Shown: piece by piece, positions 34,079 through 44,241 of the stretch | Numbering within the stretch: the first letter of the stretch is position 1 | Layout: each line of letters starts with the position of its first letter | Source of the DNA: an uncultured Cellulomonas sp. | GTDB taxonomy: Bacteria > Actinomycetota > Actinomycetes > Actinomycetales > Cellulomonadaceae | Length of the DNA: 64,000 bases | Assembly: GCF_947494015.1 (NCBI RefSeq) | Contig: NZ_CANLTL010000010.1 | Coordinates: 1-64,000 of the forward strand | Direction: 5' to 3' | Notes under the pieces: generated by a model | The model's input: only the letters and a program-made list of their open reading frames with translations | Database searches by the model: none | Told to the model about the DNA's origin: nothing | Position numbers and translations under genes: made by a program

Positions 34079-34717
34079 GTGGACACGCAACTCGTCGCGG
34101 ACCTGCGCACCGCGACCCGGACCCAGCACGAGCAGGCGGAGGCGATGCCGTTCGTGGGAGAGCTGATGGCCGGCCGGGTGCCGGTCGAGGCCTACGTCGA
34201 CCTGCTCACGCAGCACCACGCGATCTACGGCGCCCTCGAGGCGGCCGAGCCGTTCGTCCGCGTTGACACGGCGGGGGCGACGATGCTGTTCGACGTGCTG
34301 TCTCGGAGCGCCGCGATCGAGCACGACCTGGCGGTGCTGCGCGGGCCGTCCTGGCGGCAGCACGGGCGCACCCTGCCGGCCACGGACCGCTACGTCGACC
34401 GGCTGCTCGCCGTCGCGGGGACGTGGGTGGGCGGGTACGTGGCGCACGCCTACACGCGCTACCTCGGCGACCTGTCCGGGGGACTGGCCATCCGGTCGGT
34501 GCTGCGCCGCGAGTACGGGCTCGGTGACGACGCGCTCCACTTCTACACGTTCCCCGGCATCGCCAAGCCCAAGCTCTTCAAGGACCTCTACCGGGCGCGG
34601 CTGGACGCCCTTCCGTTCGACGACGGCGAGCGGGCCCGCGTCGCGGAGGAGGCGGGGGTGGCGTTCCGGCTGAACGCCGAGGTGTTCGCGGACCTGGGGG
34701 CGGTGTACCTGTCCTGA
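34079..34717 (+). CDS. Biliverdin-producing heme oxygenase
   Basis: The 212-residue helical protein carries the proximal heme ligand His17 (RTQHEQAE) and the distal-helix signature YLGDLSGG (about 128-135). These identify heme oxygenase, which opens heme to biliverdin, iron and carbon monoxide. The start is GTG. It stands alone, but a bacteriophytochrome that needs biliverdin is encoded 2.3 kb downstream, with only a DUF222/HNH gene between them. Iron recovery is another possible role. Confidence 0.93.
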   Translation: MDTQLVADLRTATRTQHEQAEAMPFVGELMAGRVPVEAYVDLLTQHHAIYGALEAAEPFVRVDTAGATMLFDVLSRSAAIEHDLAVLRGPSWRQHGRTLPATDRYVDRLLAVAGTWVGGYVAHAYTRYLGDLSGGLAIRSVLRREYGLGDDALHFYTFPGIAKPKLFKDLYRARLDALPFDDGERARVAEEAGVAFRLNAEVFADLGAVYLS

Positions 34718-35377
34718 CGCGGGGCGCCGTCGCGGCGGCGGCTGGAGGCGGGGGTCGTCGTGGCGACGCGCCGACGACGGCGTCGGCTCGGTGTGCGGTG
34801 TCAGGTGCCGCGGGTGCCGCAGGCGCCGCGGGTGCGGTCGCGGGGCCGGCTGGGTACGGCCTGTGTCGGTGGTCGGTGGTCGGTGTTCGTCGGTCGGTCG
34901 GGGTGGCGGCCGTGCGGAGCCCCGCGCGGTGCGCCGCCGCGGTGGTGCGGGCGGGGAGGCGTCGCCATCGGGCGCCGGACAGTGGTGGACGCAGGACGGC
35001 GGTGATGTTGGTGGACCCGCGGACGGCGGTAGGGGGGCGGTGTGGGGCGGGCAGCGAACGGCTGGGGTGGAGCGCCGCCGCAGGCGTCGAACGGCGCACT
35101 TCACGCGCCGCGCCGGGATCCGGGAGGCGCGATGGGCGCCCCGGCGCAAGCGAGCCGCGCGGACGGCTGCGCCGATTCGCGGTCCCGCTGCACTTCTTTC
35201 ATCGCGACGCGACAACAGCGCTCTTGACGGCCGAGGCAGTCGACCGCTGAAGGCGCCGTGAACTCGAGCAAACCGGTCCACAGCCCGCTCGGGTGAAACG
35301 CCGTCCACAAACGCTGATGGCCACGGCGGGGATGTCAGTGGCTGACCGTAGAGTGTGGGTATCGCTTTGATCGAGGC
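34718..35377. other. Long GC-rich spacer
   Basis: About 660 bases hold no defensible gene. The first 400 are low in complexity, with runs such as GGTGCCGCGGGTGCCGCAGG and repeated GTCGGTGG words. The last 200 are of more mixed composition and must include the promoter of the DUF222/HNH gene. Confidence 0.45.
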
Positions 35378-36880
35378 ATGGCCGGACGGGGCGGAAAGGG
35401 GCGGGCGATGAGTGTCGACAATCCCGTTCCGGCGCCGTCGGGGGACGCCGCTTCGGGTGGCCCGTCGTGCGTTTCTTCCCAGGTGGGTGCGGCGTTGTCG
35501 GCGATGGAGGCCGCGGTCGACGTGCTGGCCGGTCTGGACGTGGCGGTGGTGGACGGGCCGGCGGCGGCGGTGGTGGCGCGCCGGTTGGCGGTGGTGGTCA
35601 GTCGGGCGGTGGTGGCCCGGGTGCGGCTGCTGCCGGTGATCGACACCGACGGGCTGTGGGCGCTCAGTGGTGCCCGGTCGTTCCCGGTGTGGGTGTCCCA
35701 CGAGCACCAGGTGTCGGTGCAGACCGCCCGGGCCCAGGTGCGCCTGGGCCGGGCCCTGCGCGACCACCTGCCCGCCACCTCTGACGCCGCCGCGACCGGG
35801 GCGATCACCGTCGAGCAGGCCCAGCTGCTGGCCACGTTGACGCCCACCACGGCGCAGCGGCGCCAGGTGCTGGCGGACCCGGCGCATGAGTGCAACGAGG
35901 CGTTCCTGCTCGACCAGGCGGCGCGGTTGTCGGTGGACGAGACGCGGGTGCTGGCCCGGCAGTGGGCCGCCTACGCCGACCCCGACGCCGACGACCGCGG
36001 CTACGTCGAGTCCGGCGACCGCGAACACCTCGAGCTCTCACGCATGGGCGACGGATACCACCTGGAAGGGCAGCTCACCATCGAGCACGGGCAGACCCTG
36101 AAAGCCGCCCTGGCCGCCGTCACGCCGGTGCCGGCGGTCGACGACGACCGCACCCCCACCCAACGCCGCGCCCACGCGCTGGCGGACCTGGCCGCGATCA
36201 CCCTCGACCACGGCCTGGTCGGGACCGGCCGGGCGGTGCGCCCGCGGGTCACGGTCCTGGTCGACGAGCCGACCTTCCGCGCCCGCGCCCAAGCCGCCCT
36301 GGCCCGACCCCCGCACGGCACGCCGCCCGCGCAGAAGCAGGGCACGTTGGCTGCCCCCACCGACGGCCACGACACCGCTCCCAGCGCTCCGCCAGCGCTG
36401 ACGGCGGCGATGCTCACCGGTCAGGCGGTGGCCGGTGGGCCGCAGTACGAGGACCGCACCCCCGTCCCCCGCGCGTTGCTGGACCGGATCGCGTGCGACA
36501 GCCAGATCAACCGCATCATCTTCGGACCCCACGCCGAAGTCCTCGATGTCGGACGCGCCGAACGCACCTTCACCCGACATCTACGCGCCGCGATCACCGC
36601 CCGCGACAAGCACTGCCAATACCCCACCTGCACCGCACCACCACCGGTGTGCGAAGCCCACCACGTCCAGCACTGGGCCCGCGACCACGGCGCCACCAAG
36701 GTCGACAACGGAATACTCCTGTGCACCTACCACCACGGCCTCATCCACCGCCGCGGAATACAGATCCACCGGCACGGGAAACACTGGACATTCCACGACG
36801 TCCACGGAAGTCAGCTCGACCCCGACCGGGACCGAAACGGGACGAGGTCGTTATTCGGGCCTGTCCGACGACGGCGGTGA
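35378..36880 (+). CDS. DUF222 / HNH endonuclease domain protein (13E12 type)
   Basis: The 500-residue protein has an N-terminal DUF222 region (about 40-330) and a C-terminal HNH nuclease domain (about 395-465). The latter has CQYPTCTAPPPVCEAHHV (zinc Cys and catalytic HH), then DNGILLCTYHHGLIH. These multi-copy actinobacterial genes resemble the mycobacterial 13E12 repeat family. Their role is unknown and they often recombine between copies. The start could also be the ATG at 35408, which has an AAAGGGGC run before it. The gene converges with the phytochrome gene. Confidence 0.85.
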   Translation: MAGRGGKGRAMSVDNPVPAPSGDAASGGPSCVSSQVGAALSAMEAAVDVLAGLDVAVVDGPAAAVVARRLAVVVSRAVVARVRLLPVIDTDGLWALSGARSFPVWVSHEHQVSVQTARAQVRLGRALRDHLPATSDAAATGAITVEQAQLLATLTPTTAQRRQVLADPAHECNEAFLLDQAARLSVDETRVLARQWAAYADPDADDRGYVESGDREHLELSRMGDGYHLEGQLTIEHGQTLKAALAAVTPVPAVDDDRTPTQRRAHALADLAAITLDHGLVGTGRAVRPRVTVLVDEPTFRARAQAALARPPHGTPPAQKQGTLAAPTDGHDTAPSAPPALTAAMLTGQAVAGGPQYEDRTPVPRALLDRIACDSQINRIIFGPHAEVLDVGRAERTFTRHLRAAITARDKHCQYPTCTAPPPVCEAHHVQHWARDHGATKVDNGILLCTYHHGLIHRRGIQIHRHGKHWTFHDVHGSQLDPDRDRNGTRSLFGPVRRRR

Positions 36881-37003
36881 GCGGCGATTCCGGGCGCATC
36901 TGTGGTCCGTTCGAACGCAGCGCGATTCGGCACCGGGGTGCGGGATCGAGACGGCCCTGAGAGAGGACCAGGAGAGCTGGCGACCGCCGGCCACGAAGGT
37001 TCG

Positions 37004-39226
37004 TCAGTACCGCCGGATGGCCAGCACCGTCACGTCGTCGTTGGTGGCGGGCGCACCCGAGACGAGCTGCTCGCACAGCTCGTCGGGGTCTCGGCTCGCG
37101 GCGGCGGCCCGCACCCGCAGGTCCTCGAGGCTCTCCAGGAGGTGCACGCCGCGCTCCTCGACGAGACCGTCGGAGTACAGCACCAGCGCGTCACCCGGGG
37201 CGAGCTGGATCGTCGCCTCGTCCGACGGCGTGGCGACGTCCACGCCGAGCGCTGGACCGGTCGCCTCGCGGACCAGCCGGGCGTCGTCGCCGGACACGTG
37301 CAGGATCGGCAGGTGTCCGGCACTGGTCACCCGCACGGTGCCGGTCGCCGGATCGAGCTCGGCAGCGACGACGGTCGCCAGCTTGCCCGGCAGGAGTGCG
37401 CCGATCAGCGTGCTGAGCTGGCGCAACGCGACCGACGCGCTGCCCTCGTTGACGAGGTACGCGCGCAGCGCGTGCCGCATCTGGGCGGTGATCGCGGCCA
37501 CACCCATGCCGTGCCCGGCGACGTCGCCGACCATGACCACGACGCGCCCGTCGGGCAGCACGGTCACGTCGTACCAGTCCCCGCCGATGATGTCCCGGCC
37601 GCTCGGCAGGTACCGCGTGGCGAGGGAGAACCCGGCCGGGATGGCGGGGCGCTCGGTGACGACGATGCGCTGGAGGGCCGCCGCGATCCGACCGTCCTCG
37701 GCCGTTCGCCGTGCGAGCAGCTCGTCGACGTCCTGGCCCAGTCGCTTCGCGGCGGCGGCCTCCGATGCGCTCCACGGCTCGGACCGCCCCCGGACCTGCT
37801 CGACCCATGCGGCGAACGACGCCCGAGGGGTGAGCCGGAGCCCGGCGTCAGTCACTTCGACGTGCTGCGCGTGCGGGTTCCCCGCCCAGTGCACCTCCGC
37901 GAGCACCTCGGGGCGGAACCACATCAGGAAGTCGTTGCGGCCACCCGACATCAGCGGCACGGCCAGCACACCGCTCGCCGTCGCGGCGATCCGCTGCGGC
38001 AGGTCGGTTGTCGGGAAGTCGCGGGTCAGGCTGTCGGACACCACCGGCTCCCGGCTGCTCGACCACCACAGCCGGGCGAGCTCGTCCACCTCCTCGGCCG
38101 ATGGCGTCTGACCGAGCAGCCGGACCTCGCCGTGCACCCGGACGGCCGCGCCCGCGGCGCCGTCGATCAGGTCCAGGACTCCGCCGTGCTCCGTGAGGGT
38201 GGTCAACGGCTCCCGGATGTTGGCGGCGAGCGCCCGGGTCAGGTCCGCCGCCGTCGCGGTGATCGACAGGGCGTCGACGTACCGGGCCTCGTCCTCCTTG
38301 CCCTGCAGCAGCAGCGAGGCCGTCCGGCCCAGGAACTCGGCGAGGTTGCGGGTCGCAGCGCTCGGGTAGTGCGGGCCGTCGTAGTGGTGGCACGCGATCA
38401 GGCCCCAGAGTCGGCCGTGCGACAGCAGGGACACCGACATCGAGGCGCGCACACCCATGTTTGCCAGGTACTGCAGGTGCACGGGGGAGACACTGCGCAG
38501 GGCGGCGCCGGAGAGGTCCAGCGGGAGCCCGCTGCGAGGGTTCAGCGGCGGCACGAGCGGGCTGGCGGTGTAGCGGGCGTCCGGGATGGAGCGCAGCCAC
38601 TGCGTCGTGTAGAGCGCGCGCGCCTGCTCGGGGATGTCCGAGGCGGGGTAGTGCAGACCGAGGAACGGCTCGAGGTCCTCGCGTGCCGCCTCGGCGACGA
38701 CCTCGCCGTTCCACTCCTCGTCGAACCGGTAGACCATGACACGGTCGAACCCGGTCACCCGGCGCACCTCGTGGGCGAGCATCCGGGTCAGCTCCGTCTG
38801 GGTGCCGGCGCCCTGCAGTGCGCGCAGCGCGAGCCGCGTGCGCGGCGCGGACTCCGGCAGCGCGTCCCCCCGCGGTTCGAGCTCCACGACGAGCAGCCCG
38901 TCGGTGCGGTGCGCCAGCAGGTCGACCGTGCGCCGAACGCCGTCCGGGCCGTTCAGCTGCACCCGCCGGGGCTCGCCACCCTCGTCGCCGGGCGCGAGCG
39001 CGGACAGATGCTCGGCACCCAGGACGTCGGCCAGCCGTAGCCCGAGCAGCTCCTCGGCCGGCCGGCCCAGGTGCTCGGCGGCGTTCGCCGAGGCCATCAG
39101 GATGGTGTGGTCGCCCTCGTCCGCGACGAGCAGCGCGCCGTGGGCCTGGACGGACCCCGGGATGCGGATCGGCTCATCGGCGCAGTCGACGACATGGTTC
39201 AGGGACAGGGGTGCAGCAGCGGTCAC
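37004..39226 (-). CDS. Bacteriophytochrome with PP2C/SpoIIE phosphatase output
   Basis: The 740-residue protein starts with a PAS domain whose Cys15 (VVDCADEPIRIPGS) lies where bacteriophytochromes attach biliverdin. The GAF domain (about 140-310) has PASDIP (194-199), SPVHLQYL with His250, and IACHH (His280/281), the chromophore contacts. The PHY domain (about 320-500) has the tongue motif PRASF (467-471). The usual histidine kinase is replaced by a PP2C-like phosphatase (about 530-740) with GGDWYD, GDVAGHG and TNDDVT. Red/far-red light would thus control a serine/threonine phosphatase, probably in a partner-switching pathway. The GTG at 39226 is chosen because the longer frame runs through a hexamer repeat. 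Confidence 0.92.
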   Translation of the reverse strand: MTAAAPLSLNHVVDCADEPIRIPGSVQAHGALLVADEGDHTILMASANAAEHLGRPAEELLGLRLADVLGAEHLSALAPGDEGGEPRRVQLNGPDGVRRTVDLLAHRTDGLLVVELEPRGDALPESAPRTRLALRALQGAGTQTELTRMLAHEVRRVTGFDRVMVYRFDEEWNGEVVAEAAREDLEPFLGLHYPASDIPEQARALYTTQWLRSIPDARYTASPLVPPLNPRSGLPLDLSGAALRSVSPVHLQYLANMGVRASMSVSLLSHGRLWGLIACHHYDGPHYPSAATRNLAEFLGRTASLLLQGKEDEARYVDALSITATAADLTRALAANIREPLTTLTEHGGVLDLIDGAAGAAVRVHGEVRLLGQTPSAEEVDELARLWWSSSREPVVSDSLTRDFPTTDLPQRIAATASGVLAVPLMSGGRNDFLMWFRPEVLAEVHWAGNPHAQHVEVTDAGLRLTPRASFAAWVEQVRGRSEPWSASEAAAAKRLGQDVDELLARRTAEDGRIAAALQRIVVTERPAIPAGFSLATRYLPSGRDIIGGDWYDVTVLPDGRVVVMVGDVAGHGMGVAAITAQMRHALRAYLVNEGSASVALRQLSTLIGALLPGKLATVVAAELDPATGTVRVTSAGHLPILHVSGDDARLVREATGPALGVDVATPSDEATIQLAPGDALVLYSDGLVEERGVHLLESLEDLRVRAAAASRDPDELCEQLVSGAPATNDDVTVLAIRRY

Positions 39227-39400: not shown

Positions 39401-39453
39401 CAGTCGCAGTCGCAGTCGCAGTCGCAGTCCCGGTCCAGTCGCAGTCGCAGTCG
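39401..39453. repeat. CAGTCG hexamer repeat
   Basis: Four CAGTCG units, an 11-base interruption (CAGTCCCGGTC) and three more units lie in the divergent promoter region between the phytochrome and patatin genes. Change in copy number could alter promoter spacing for either gene. Confidence 0.85.
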
Positions 39454-39509
39454 CGGGTGCGCACGAGTGGTCGTGCGGCGCCGCGCGGACGGCGCGAGAG
39501 AGGAGACCC

Positions 39510-40982
39510 ATGAGAGCGGTCGGTGTACTGCGCCGCCAGCTGCGTGCGGCCGGTCGGCGCACCGGCCCGACACGCGTGCGGGAGGCCCTGGCGCTCAGTG
39601 GTGGCGGCTCGCGCGCAGGCTTCGAGATCGGTGCCCTGCGCTACCTGTACGACGTCGTCGGTGTCTCGCCGAGCATCATCACCGGCACCTCCGCCGGCTC
39701 GCTGGTGGCGGCCGTGCTCGCCCAGAGCCGGGACCCGCACGAGCAGCGCGCCGCCCTGGCCGGGCTGGAGACGCTGTGGCGAGGCATGAGGACGTCGTCG
39801 GACCTGTTCGAGGAGACGCCCTGGTTCACGTCGCTGCGCACCATCGCCCCCGAGTGGCTCGAGGTCTTCCAGCGACGACGCCGCGTCGGGCACGTGCTCG
39901 GCGACCCGGCCGAGGCGCCGATGTGGAGCCCCTTCCGGACGGTGGACGCGCTGCTCGCGATGCGGGCGCTGGGCCGTACCGGCCGGGACCTGGAGCACGT
40001 GCTGTCGGCGGCGGAGACCGCGCAGGGACTCTTCGCCCCCGGCCGCCTGACCCGCCAGGTGCAGGACCCGGCGGTCTTCGACCCCGGCCGGGTGCCCGGC
40101 TCGGGGGTGCAGCTGCGGATCGCCGTCGTGGGCCTGGAGTCCGGGGAGCTGCGGTACGTCACGGAGGCCGGCCGGCTCGTCGATCGCAGCAACCGTCCGG
40201 TCCCCGGCGGGGCCACGATCGCGATCACCGACGCCGTCCGGGCGTCGTCGGCCATCCCGGTCGTCTTCCCGCCCGTGCGGCTCGACGGGGAGCACTACGT
40301 GGACGGCGGGGTGCGCGAGGTGGTCCCGATCGAGATGGCTGCGCGCCACCTGGGCGGCACCCGGTGCTGGGCGGTGGTCGCGTCGGCGACCGGCAGCCCA
40401 CCGGACACCGACTTCGCGGGCAAGAACATCCTGGCCATCGCGTCCCGGGCGTACACCGACATCATGTGGGACGAGGTGCTGCGCGACGAGGTCGAGCTCG
40501 CGCGGACCTCGGCCCGCGTCACGCTGATCCAGCCGGAGGTCGACGTCCACGACAGCCTCGGCGTCGACCCGGGCCTGACCGCGATCGACATCGACCACGG
40601 CTGGCTGCGGGCGGGCGACGTCGTGCGCGGGGCCGATGCGGACGAGTGCCGCCTCACCGCGCGGATCGTCACGCTGCGCCGCGACATCTGGCAGGCGGAG
40701 CACGCCCACGCCGGCGTGCCGATCGTCCGCGGCGCGGGCGGCGGCCCGGGCGGCGGCACGGGCGGCGGCACGGGTGCCGCTGCCGTGTCGGACGCGCCCA
40801 CGGCGCACCGCCGCCCCACCGCCGCGGACGACGCCGCACTCGCCCTGCTCAAGCGGCAGCTGCGCGACGCCGTCGCCGCGAAGGACCCGGCACAGCTGCC
40901 CGCCGGTGCGCACGGGTGGTGGCAGCGGTGGGAGGACCACGCGTGGCCGACGCCGGTGCGCCGGCCCTGGCCCGCCGACTGA
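39510..40982 (+). CDS. Patatin-like phospholipase
   Basis: The 490-residue protein has the patatin catalytic dyad: an oxyanion loop SGGGSRAGFE (about 30-39), the nucleophile in GTSAG (about 58), and Asp in DGG (about 271). A GGG/GGT-rich spacer (about 410-430) separates the core from a short C-terminal helical part. Such enzymes remove acyl chains from lipids. AGGAGA precedes the ATG. It is divergent from the phytochrome gene across a hexamer repeat. Confidence 0.9.
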   Translation: MRAVGVLRRQLRAAGRRTGPTRVREALALSGGGSRAGFEIGALRYLYDVVGVSPSIITGTSAGSLVAAVLAQSRDPHEQRAALAGLETLWRGMRTSSDLFEETPWFTSLRTIAPEWLEVFQRRRRVGHVLGDPAEAPMWSPFRTVDALLAMRALGRTGRDLEHVLSAAETAQGLFAPGRLTRQVQDPAVFDPGRVPGSGVQLRIAVVGLESGELRYVTEAGRLVDRSNRPVPGGATIAITDAVRASSAIPVVFPPVRLDGEHYVDGGVREVVPIEMAARHLGGTRCWAVVASATGSPPDTDFAGKNILAIASRAYTDIMWDEVLRDEVELARTSARVTLIQPEVDVHDSLGVDPGLTAIDIDHGWLRAGDVVRGADADECRLTARIVTLRRDIWQAEHAHAGVPIVRGAGGGPGGGTGGGTGAAAVSDAPTAHRRPTAADDAALALLKRQLRDAVAAKDPAQLPAGAHGWWQRWEDHAWPTPVRRPWPAD

Positions 40983-42885: not shown

Positions 42886-42984
42886 GCGCCCGAGCCTGGC
42901 AGCGGTCTGTGACGGCGGCGTTTCCGTCGTGTGCCGACCTCGCGGCCGTCGCCCGCGGGTGCCCGCAACCCTAAGGTTCGAGGC

Positions 42985-44241
42985 ATGGCCCCCGTGCGCG
43001 ACGACCGTCTGCTCGCCGTGCTGCGCACCATGCTCGACCGGGTCCACCTCGCGACGCCCGGGCAGGTGCCCGACGTCGTCGCGGCGGCGGCCGCGGAGCT
43101 GGGGTGGACCACGGCGATCTACCTCGTGGACGACGAGCAGCGTCAGCTCCTGCAGTTCTCCGCGACGCGCGCCCCGCACGCCGACCCGCAGTCCGTCGAG
43201 GGCACGCTGGCCGGCCGGGCGTTCAAGCTGGTGCAGCCGGTCGTCGTCCACGGTGGCGAGCCCGCCGTCTGGGTCCCGCTGGTCGACGGCACCCACCGGC
43301 TCGGCGTGCTGCGGATCGCGGTGCCGGTCGGGACCGACCTGGCCGACCCGACGGTCGAGGACGCCTACCGGATGCTCGCGCACCTGGCCGGTCACCTGGT
43401 GGCCGCCAAGCGGCCGTACGGCGACGCGGTGTCGCGGGCGTCGCGCACCCGGGAGCGGTCCGTCGCGTCCGAGCTGCTGTGGGACCTGCTGCCGCCGCTC
43501 ACCTTCGGCTGCGAGGGGCTGGTCGTCTCGGCGATCCTGGAGCCGTGCTACGACGTGGCCGCCGACGCCTTCGACTACAGCGTGGTCGACGACGTCGCCC
43601 ACCTCGCCGTGCTGGACGCGACCGGTCACGACCTGCGGGGCACCGTCTCGGCGGCGGTCACGCTCGCCGCGCTGCGCAACAGCCGACGCGAGGGCCGCGA
43701 CCTGGAGACGACCGTGCGGGTGATGGACCGCTACGCGACGGAGCAGGGCCGGGGGCAGATCTTCGTGACGGCCGTCGTGGCGACCCTGGACCTGCCGACC
43801 GGACGGCTGCGGTATGCGAACGCCGGGCACCTGGCGCCGCTGCTGATGCGGCGCGGCAAGGTCGTCAAGCAGCTCACCGGCGGGCGCCGCGTGCTGATGG
43901 GTCTGGGCCACGAGGAGGTCGCCGTCGCCGAGGAGCAGCTCGAGCCGGGGGACTGCGTGGTGCTCTACACCGACGGCATCACCGAGGCGCGCGACGACAC
44001 GGGGACGTTCTTCGGCATCGACCGGCTCATCGGTCACCTCGAACGGTCCGCCGCGGCCGATCTGCCCGCCCCCGAGATGTTGCGCCGGCTCAGCCACGAC
44101 GTGCTGGACCACCAGAAGGGCGTCCTGCAGGACGACGCCACGCTCGTGGTGGCACAGTGGGCGAGCGGCGAGGAGCACACGTACACCTCGGGGCTCGCCG
44201 CGGCGCCGACGCCCTTGGGCGCCGACGCGCTGCGGCACTGA
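42985..44241 (+). CDS. GAF-SpoIIE (PP2C-type) serine phosphatase
   Basis: The 418-residue protein has a GAF-like sensor domain (about 10-145) and a SpoIIE/PP2C phosphatase domain (about 170-390). Metal-site stretches are DATGHDLRG, YANAGHLAPLL, LYTDGITEARDD and LQDDATLVV. The first Asp pair usually seen as GGDWYD is replaced by AADAFDYSV, which keeps an Asp but not the Gly-Gly. Enzymes of this kind dephosphorylate anti-anti-sigma factors of the RsbV type. No such gene lies nearby. It is the second phosphatase of this family in the window. Confidence 0.88.
   Translation: MAPVRDDRLLAVLRTMLDRVHLATPGQVPDVVAAAAAELGWTTAIYLVDDEQRQLLQFSATRAPHADPQSVEGTLAGRAFKLVQPVVVHGGEPAVWVPLVDGTHRLGVLRIAVPVGTDLADPTVEDAYRMLAHLAGHLVAAKRPYGDAVSRASRTRERSVASELLWDLLPPLTFGCEGLVVSAILEPCYDVAADAFDYSVVDDVAHLAVLDATGHDLRGTVSAAVTLAALRNSRREGRDLETTVRVMDRYATEQGRGQIFVTAVVATLDLPTGRLRYANAGHLAPLLMRRGKVVKQLTGGRRVLMGLGHEEVAVAEEQLEPGDCVVLYTDGITEARDDTGTFFGIDRLIGHLERSAAADLPAPEMLRRLSHDVLDHQKGVLQDDATLVVAQWASGEEHTYTSGLAAAPTPLGADALRH

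Follow-up and report, generated by a model that had tools for sequence, protein, structure and literature searches.

What does a bacterial phytochrome control when its output is a phosphatase? Most bacterial phytochromes characterised so far act as kinases or as cyclic-di-GMP enzymes. The question is raised by a 64-kb stretch of DNA from an uncultured Cellulomonas sp. (contig NZ_CANLTL010000010.1, positions 1 to 64,000, hereafter the window), which carries a bacteriophytochrome gene with a SpoIIE/PP2C phosphatase output, here called bphP-SpoIIE, and a heme oxygenase gene nearby. Our reading, which we hold at a probability of about 0.7, is that the protein would be a biliverdin red/far-red receptor whose RsbU/SpoIIE-type phosphatase acts on a STAS protein, thereby freeing the client of an RsbW-like protein. 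Its direct support consists of the domains, the residues, a near-fixed spacing, a single phylogenetic group and the STAS/RsbW-like genes found beside many orthologues. The features concerned are the following.

34079–34717, plus strand: bphO-like heme oxygenase, predicted to supply biliverdin (PF01126, E 1.1e-52, 4-205 of 212 aa)
37004–39226, minus strand: bphP-SpoIIE, 740 aa, bacteriophytochrome with PP2C phosphatase output (Pfam, alignments, AlphaFold2)
38873–39184, minus strand: PAS_2 domain with the biliverdin Cys C15, codon 39182–39184 (PF08446, E 2.8e-21)
38315–38791, minus strand: GAF domain with YPASDIP and both histidines, H250 and H280 (PF01590, E 3.8e-16)
37703–38200, minus strand: PHY domain with the PRASF tongue, P467–F471, at 37814–37828 (PF00360, E 6e-40)
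37661–37768, minus strand: single predicted helix, residues 487-522, from PHY to PP2C (AlphaFold2 model)
37010–37555, minus strand: SpoIIE/PP2C phosphatase domain (PF07228, E 8.6e-41, 1-191 of 192)

The Pfam matches follow one another as PAS_2-GAF-PHY-SpoIIE, that is, the PAS-GAF-PHY order of a bacteriophytochrome core followed by the phosphatase; no kinase domain of the HisKA type or other is among them, as the original prediction had it. In a profile search, this protein gave the only PHY match of its genome. The AlphaFold2 model has a mean predicted local distance difference test score (pLDDT) of 86.8. Its sensor matches solved phytochromes, with a fold match to BphP cores at E 2.1e-46, and the nearest solved relative of the phosphatase domain by sequence is Rv1364c (3ke6, E 6.2e-20). 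To judge from its sequence, the phytochrome is intact, and it is very likely a red/far-red-controlled phosphatase.

Two sets of loci bear on its partners. The order set stems from an even draw of 198 genomes of the order, 35 of which (own genome included; one truncated at a contig end) have full-length orthologues; it comprises 35 loci of relatives, taken with up to 8 kb on either side. A phylum-wide draw gave orthologues in 3 of 396 genomes, again counting the window's own. The named set consists of the best 80 loci by similarity, 42 of SpoIIE type and 38 with non-SpoIIE phytochromes, and shares at least four loci with the order set. Hosts among these best 80 matches include Cellulomonas, Actinotalea, Geodermatophilus, Kineococcus, Nocardioides, Aeromicrobium, Mycobacterium, Frankia, Georgenia and Cellulosimicrobium, and the closest relative among them is Cellulomonas aerilata (77% identity). 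Below, G and L numbers denote genomes and loci, respectively.

The STAS and HATPase models used to search the flanks of the 35 order loci were derived from the genome of the window. Within 2 kb of the phytochrome, a STAS match occurs in 14 loci, a HATPase_c_2 (RsbW-like) match in 17, either of them in 19 and both in 12. Between 2 and 8 kb there are 2 STAS and 8 HATPase matches, although the far flanks total 378.6 kb vs. 130.6 kb for the near ones. The corresponding binomial p values, 3.7e-7 for STAS and 3.9e-6 for HATPase, ignore the kinship of the loci and overstate their independence, a caution to be set against our reading. From the density in the own genome, 0.46 near STAS matches would be expected, vs. 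the 14 observed. All 14 keep D-S-x-G, the phosphosite motif of RsbV and SpoIIAA. Among the 42 SpoIIE-type loci of the named set, STAS is found within 2 kb in 13, HATPase in 11 and either in 13, these loci coming from the best 80 by similarity. The 38 non-SpoIIE loci gave no STAS and 16 weak HATPase matches; they are mostly cyanobacterial, hence a weak control, and the comparison of near with far flanks is the better one. The phosphorylation site of RsbV is given as S56 in PMC11418112.

The arrangement of these genes varies. In Aeromicrobium Root495 (L095), bphP and the STAS gene share 4 bp at the bphP stop, and STAS also lies co-directionally downstream in G067 and G102. Convergent downstream pairs occur in the window's own family (G008, G027, G044, G116, G186) and in the named Cellulosimicrobium, Isoptericola and Cellulomonas PhB143. 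Divergent upstream STAS/HATPase pairs are seen in G065 (L205) and in family f15, and in the window's sister clade the HATPase gene is upstream and divergent, alone or together with STAS. When the presence of the cassette was scored on the tree, nine rows with short flanks being left out, at least 10 changes were counted, 6 of them forced by starred branches. Because of these changes and of the differing arrangements, the STAS/RsbW-like linkage probably arose more than once. Such linkage of STAS and HATPase_c_2 genes to the phosphatase, found within the family, supports red-light-controlled partner switching as its likely mode of action.

Several observations weigh against this reading. Neither gene lies within 2 kb in 16 of the 35 order loci (5 of these have a truncated flank and 3 a HATPase at 2.3–2.5 kb), and the STAS proteins of L097 and L124 are devoid of D-S-x-G. 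In the 64-kb window, no STAS or RsbW-like match was found at E 1e-3, and the window has no linked STAS and HATPase_c_2 genes of its own. The earlier proposal of light-driven partner switching finds comparative support beside the orthologues, where STAS and RsbW-like genes stand far above background, and no linked partner in the window. The nearest kin of its phytochrome form a four-row Cellulomonadaceae subclade, in which the partner is unlinked: C. aerilata (L090) and an uncultured Cellulomonadaceae (L092, with one STAS at 7 kb) lack both STAS and RsbW-like genes within 2 kb, and the flank of the Actinotalea locus (L091) is shorter than 1 kb. The 12-row clade that includes the window has seven rows with the cassette, three without (window, L090, L092) and two unscored for short flanks (L091, L094). 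Finally, close homologues of the RsbW-like protein found in the sister clade are lacking from the window's genome, from C. aerilata and from the L092 genome.

The missing cassettes and the missing RsbW-like homologue are what would be seen if the protein were a light-controlled PP2C phosphatase whose substrate in this lineage is something other than a STAS protein, the subclade having been rewired to another phosphoprotein. We consider this unlikely. Indeed, the genome holds 15 STAS matches (14 over cut-off) and 32 HATPase_c_2 matches (25 over cut-off) together with 13 SpoIIE matches, so that unlinked partners exist, and the PP2C domain aligns with those of orthologues that lie beside STAS genes. 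A fuller account can be offered tentatively, at somewhat less than even odds: phytochromes of the BphP-SpoIIE type would be the red/far-red members of the bacterial stress phosphatases, repeatedly paired with different STAS/RsbW-like modules in the course of evolution, and the window's subclade would have lost its dedicated module and re-aimed the light signal at an unlinked, perhaps global, partner switch.

A partner was sought by orthology in the window's genome (G000). At G000:C13:35547-37299 (L001), SpoIIE, HATPase_c_2 and two STAS matches stand in a row, the first two within one 675-aa frame, and the whole reads as an Rv1364c-like cluster or fusion. Of all genes in the genome, its HATPase, in the frame that also has the SpoIIE match, best matches the sister clade's RsbW-like protein (7.7e-9). 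Another gene, G000:C2:119535, is the common best match (45-49%) of the linked RsbW-like genes of Cellulosimicrobium (L101, L139), Isoptericola (L113) and Cellulomonas PhB143 (L107). Members of its family were found in 20 of 198 genomes, in 14 of the 40 that have a phytochrome match vs. 6 of the other 158 (Fisher 3.7e-7, kinship not removed); 10 of the 14 carry a copy at most about 1.3 kb away from bphP. Where G027, G044 and G116 have both a linked and an unlinked paralogue, G000:C2:119535 is closer to the unlinked one, while in G197 the linked one is the closer. On these grounds, and because it is unlinked with no STAS seen beside it, it was not named as the partner. Assignment through STAS orthology was given up since the STAS matches were too weak.

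Is the sensor really a light sensor? A phytochrome might sense another cue or bind no bilin in the cell, in which case the phosphatase would be constitutive or redox-gated. Release of iron is another possible role of heme oxygenase, so that its gene would fit this view too. Against it stands the conservation of the bilin-related residues. Alignment A1 comprises 28 of the 36 orthologue loci from the order draw, 39-51% identical to the window phytochrome, and P194, D197-I198-P199 (PASDIP), H250, H280 and the P467, R468, S470 and F471 of PRxSF are invariant in it. Alignment A2 comprises 33 of the 43 SpoIIE-type rows (42 named loci and the window), and C15, the PASDIP region and both histidines are invariant in it. 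The biliverdin Cys, PASDIP, histidines and PRxSF listed in the original prediction are thus all present. A pattern count covering 34 of the 35 order loci and 42 of the 43 named-set rows (L125 and L208 were missed) found PASDIP, His, PRxSF and the remaining motifs in 34 of 34 order-set proteins and the Cys in 32, the other two being cut off by contig ends. The locus of Cellulosimicrobium sp. CUA-896 (L139), omitted from A2, has five stop codons in its phytochrome-SpoIIE range, which may be broken or contain a sequencing error; STAS and HATPase matches lie beside it.

Heme oxygenase likewise argues for a bilin-binding receptor. It was found over cut-off in 27 of the 32 searched named genomes with the phytochrome-SpoIIE family. 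With a broader model that includes divergent heme oxygenases, the gene adjoins bphP in 11 of the 35 loci of the order set and in 17 of the 42 named ones, figures that lean toward linked genes, as linked genes are among the 10 seeds of the model; with the own heme oxygenase as query, adjacency falls to 6 of 42 named loci, divergent ones being missed. For four of the divergent genes, Pfam bore out the assignment. In C. aerilata (L090) and Actinotalea C106 (L091), heme oxygenase lies directly beside the phytochrome in convergent orientation; in C. aerilata the gap is less than 100 bp and a pirin gene follows, as in the window. In G065 (L205), the two genes share 4 bp at the bphP start. A cue other than light, or a sensor without bilin, is therefore very improbable, and the comparison lends weight to the earlier idea of a one-protein light-controlled phosphatase probably fed by heme oxygenase. 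In the window, the heme oxygenase gene is near the phytochrome as described, with a DUF222 gene in between.

The phosphatase domain also appears complete. Its acids D550, D553, D568, D686 and D731, the first two just upstream of the Pfam match, are presumably the metal-binding acids, as in PP2C enzymes. The five are invariant in the 28 rows of A1, and the loss of metal ligands that would have undone the original prediction is not seen in the sequence; D731 is not listed for A2, some rows of which end before it. In the named set, several Geodermatophilaceae and a few others deviate from the GDVxGHG or DDxT patterns, and nine deviating sequences, when inspected, retained the acids (GDVVGHD, GDIAGHG, EDDVAL and like). 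Among Geodermatophilaceae, GDVVGHD replaces GDVAGHG in L118, L119, L121, L123, L126, L127 and L128, with the acids kept. A pseudo-phosphatase adaptor as in RssB, at which a weak match to the RssB model NF045505 might hint (26.4 bits vs. a cut-off of 700), is hardly credible in view of the five conserved acids.

How would the sensor reach the phosphatase? In the AlphaFold2 model, one helix (residues 487-522) runs continuously from PHY into the phosphatase. The distance from PRxSF to GGDW, the first phosphatase motif, is 81 residues in 28 of 28 A1 rows and in 41 of the 43 rows of the named set plus window, the other two having 80. An L-Q position immediately preceding the phosphatase stands 51 residues from PRxSF in 42 of these 43 rows; the deviating row has L-R there. 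A heptad coiled-coil pattern in the linker was not significant, 787 of 5000 permutations scoring as high, and this also counts against the reading. PMC12143880 proposes that, for many sensors, helical linkers govern how the phosphatase dimerises and binds metal; a search of its text did not find the word phytochrome.

A mechanism can be proposed on these grounds. The receptor would be a dimer that binds biliverdin made by the heme oxygenase and responds to red and far-red light. Light would flip the PHY tongue, and the change would pass down the continuous, fixed-length helix into the PP2C domain and alter its activity, most likely through altered pairing and metal holding of the two phosphatase domains. 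The phosphatase would then dephosphorylate an anti-anti-sigma protein of the STAS (RsbV-like) kind, which in this state would bind the RsbW-like kinase/anti-sigma protein, freeing its client. As for direction, our guess leans only slightly toward activation by red light, that is, in the far-red-absorbing form Pfr.

The architecture itself is ordinary in the order and already in print. In the tree, from which four near-identical rows were removed, all 73 SpoIIE-type sensors stand on one side of a branch (Shimodaira-Hasegawa-like approximate likelihood ratio test, SH-aLRT, 95) and 46 others, of kinase, GGDEF and other types, on the opposite side. SpoIIE/PPM phosphatase is among the phytochrome effectors of PMC9587094 (2022, Fig. 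2 legend), with the same PAS-GAF-PHY plus phosphatase order, and effectors cluster on the tree given there as they do in ours. However, that paper studies diguanylate cyclases, and, for the phosphatase type, its parts consulted here report neither partner genes nor linker data nor activity. Its phytochrome-activated diguanylate cyclase, PadC, shares the coupling through one length-constrained helix, but its linkers have several lengths (multiples of 7, -4, +2), whereas phytochrome-SpoIIE keeps nearly one. Histidine kinases of the DrBphP type have the photosensory core and the Cys/His/PRxSF residues in common with the window phytochrome; they differ by their kinase output and stand on a separate branch. 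RsbU, RsbP and Rv1364c, the last among the general-stress phosphatases documented in PMC12143880, combine, like the window protein, a sensor, a helical linker and PP2C, and theirs acts on STAS. Their sensors are RsbT-binding, PAS, GAF, response receiver or HAMP domains in place of a phytochrome, and the RsbU-type linker is described there as a coiled coil, whereas the heptad pattern was not significant in the phytochrome-SpoIIE linker. No activity measurement or STAS/RsbW linkage for phytochrome-SpoIIE was found in searches of an open-access library, most subscription papers and preprints lying outside it.

If the reading is true, a red/far-red receptor driving partner switching would give actinobacteria a direct route from light to control of the sigma-factor type, phytochrome-SpoIIE would show whether the helix-to-phosphatase mechanism put forward for RsbU extends to phytochromes, and a single-protein red-light phosphatase could serve optogenetics. 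The added evidence is genomic: the linked STAS genes are the first candidate substrates of phytochrome phosphatases, and the STAS/RsbW-like linkage makes the predicted light-to-gene-control pathway easy to test.

The surroundings in the window contain four further features.

35378–36880, plus strand: DUF222 gene between the heme oxygenase and phytochrome genes (Pfam)
39510–40982, plus strand: patatin-like phospholipase gene, divergent from the phytochrome
42931–44241, plus strand: second SpoIIE-type phosphatase, weak GAF match (Pfam)
39401–39454: CAGTCG hexamer repeat, nine copies, between the divergent phytochrome and patatin genes

The second SpoIIE-type phosphatase does lie about 3.7 kb beyond the phytochrome start, close to where it had been placed. 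Its membership of the phytochrome system was rejected: it is one of the genome's 13 SpoIIE matches, and it is not conserved beside the phytochrome, the flanks of the 42 named loci having no homologue of it except the phytochromes' own domain. The patatin gene, for which the flanks of the 42 named relatives' loci also gave no homologue, was rejected as a conserved divergent partner, since among the window and these loci it is seen in the window only.

The heme oxygenase and phytochrome genes, on opposite strands, are 2.3 kb apart. DUF222 is absent between them in Cellulomonas aerilata, and the DUF222 gene of the window, the end of which has a weak partial match to an HNH-type restriction model, is one of about 10 DUF222 reading frames of the genome; for these reasons the gap looks like a later insertion, although clear flanking repeats were looked for around this gene and none was seen. 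The phytochrome start was taken as the GTG at 39226. The open frame extends to 39562, but the extra 112 codons are low-complexity sequence with the CAGTCG repeat, which makes this start reasonable. The length of the repeat could vary and alter expression.

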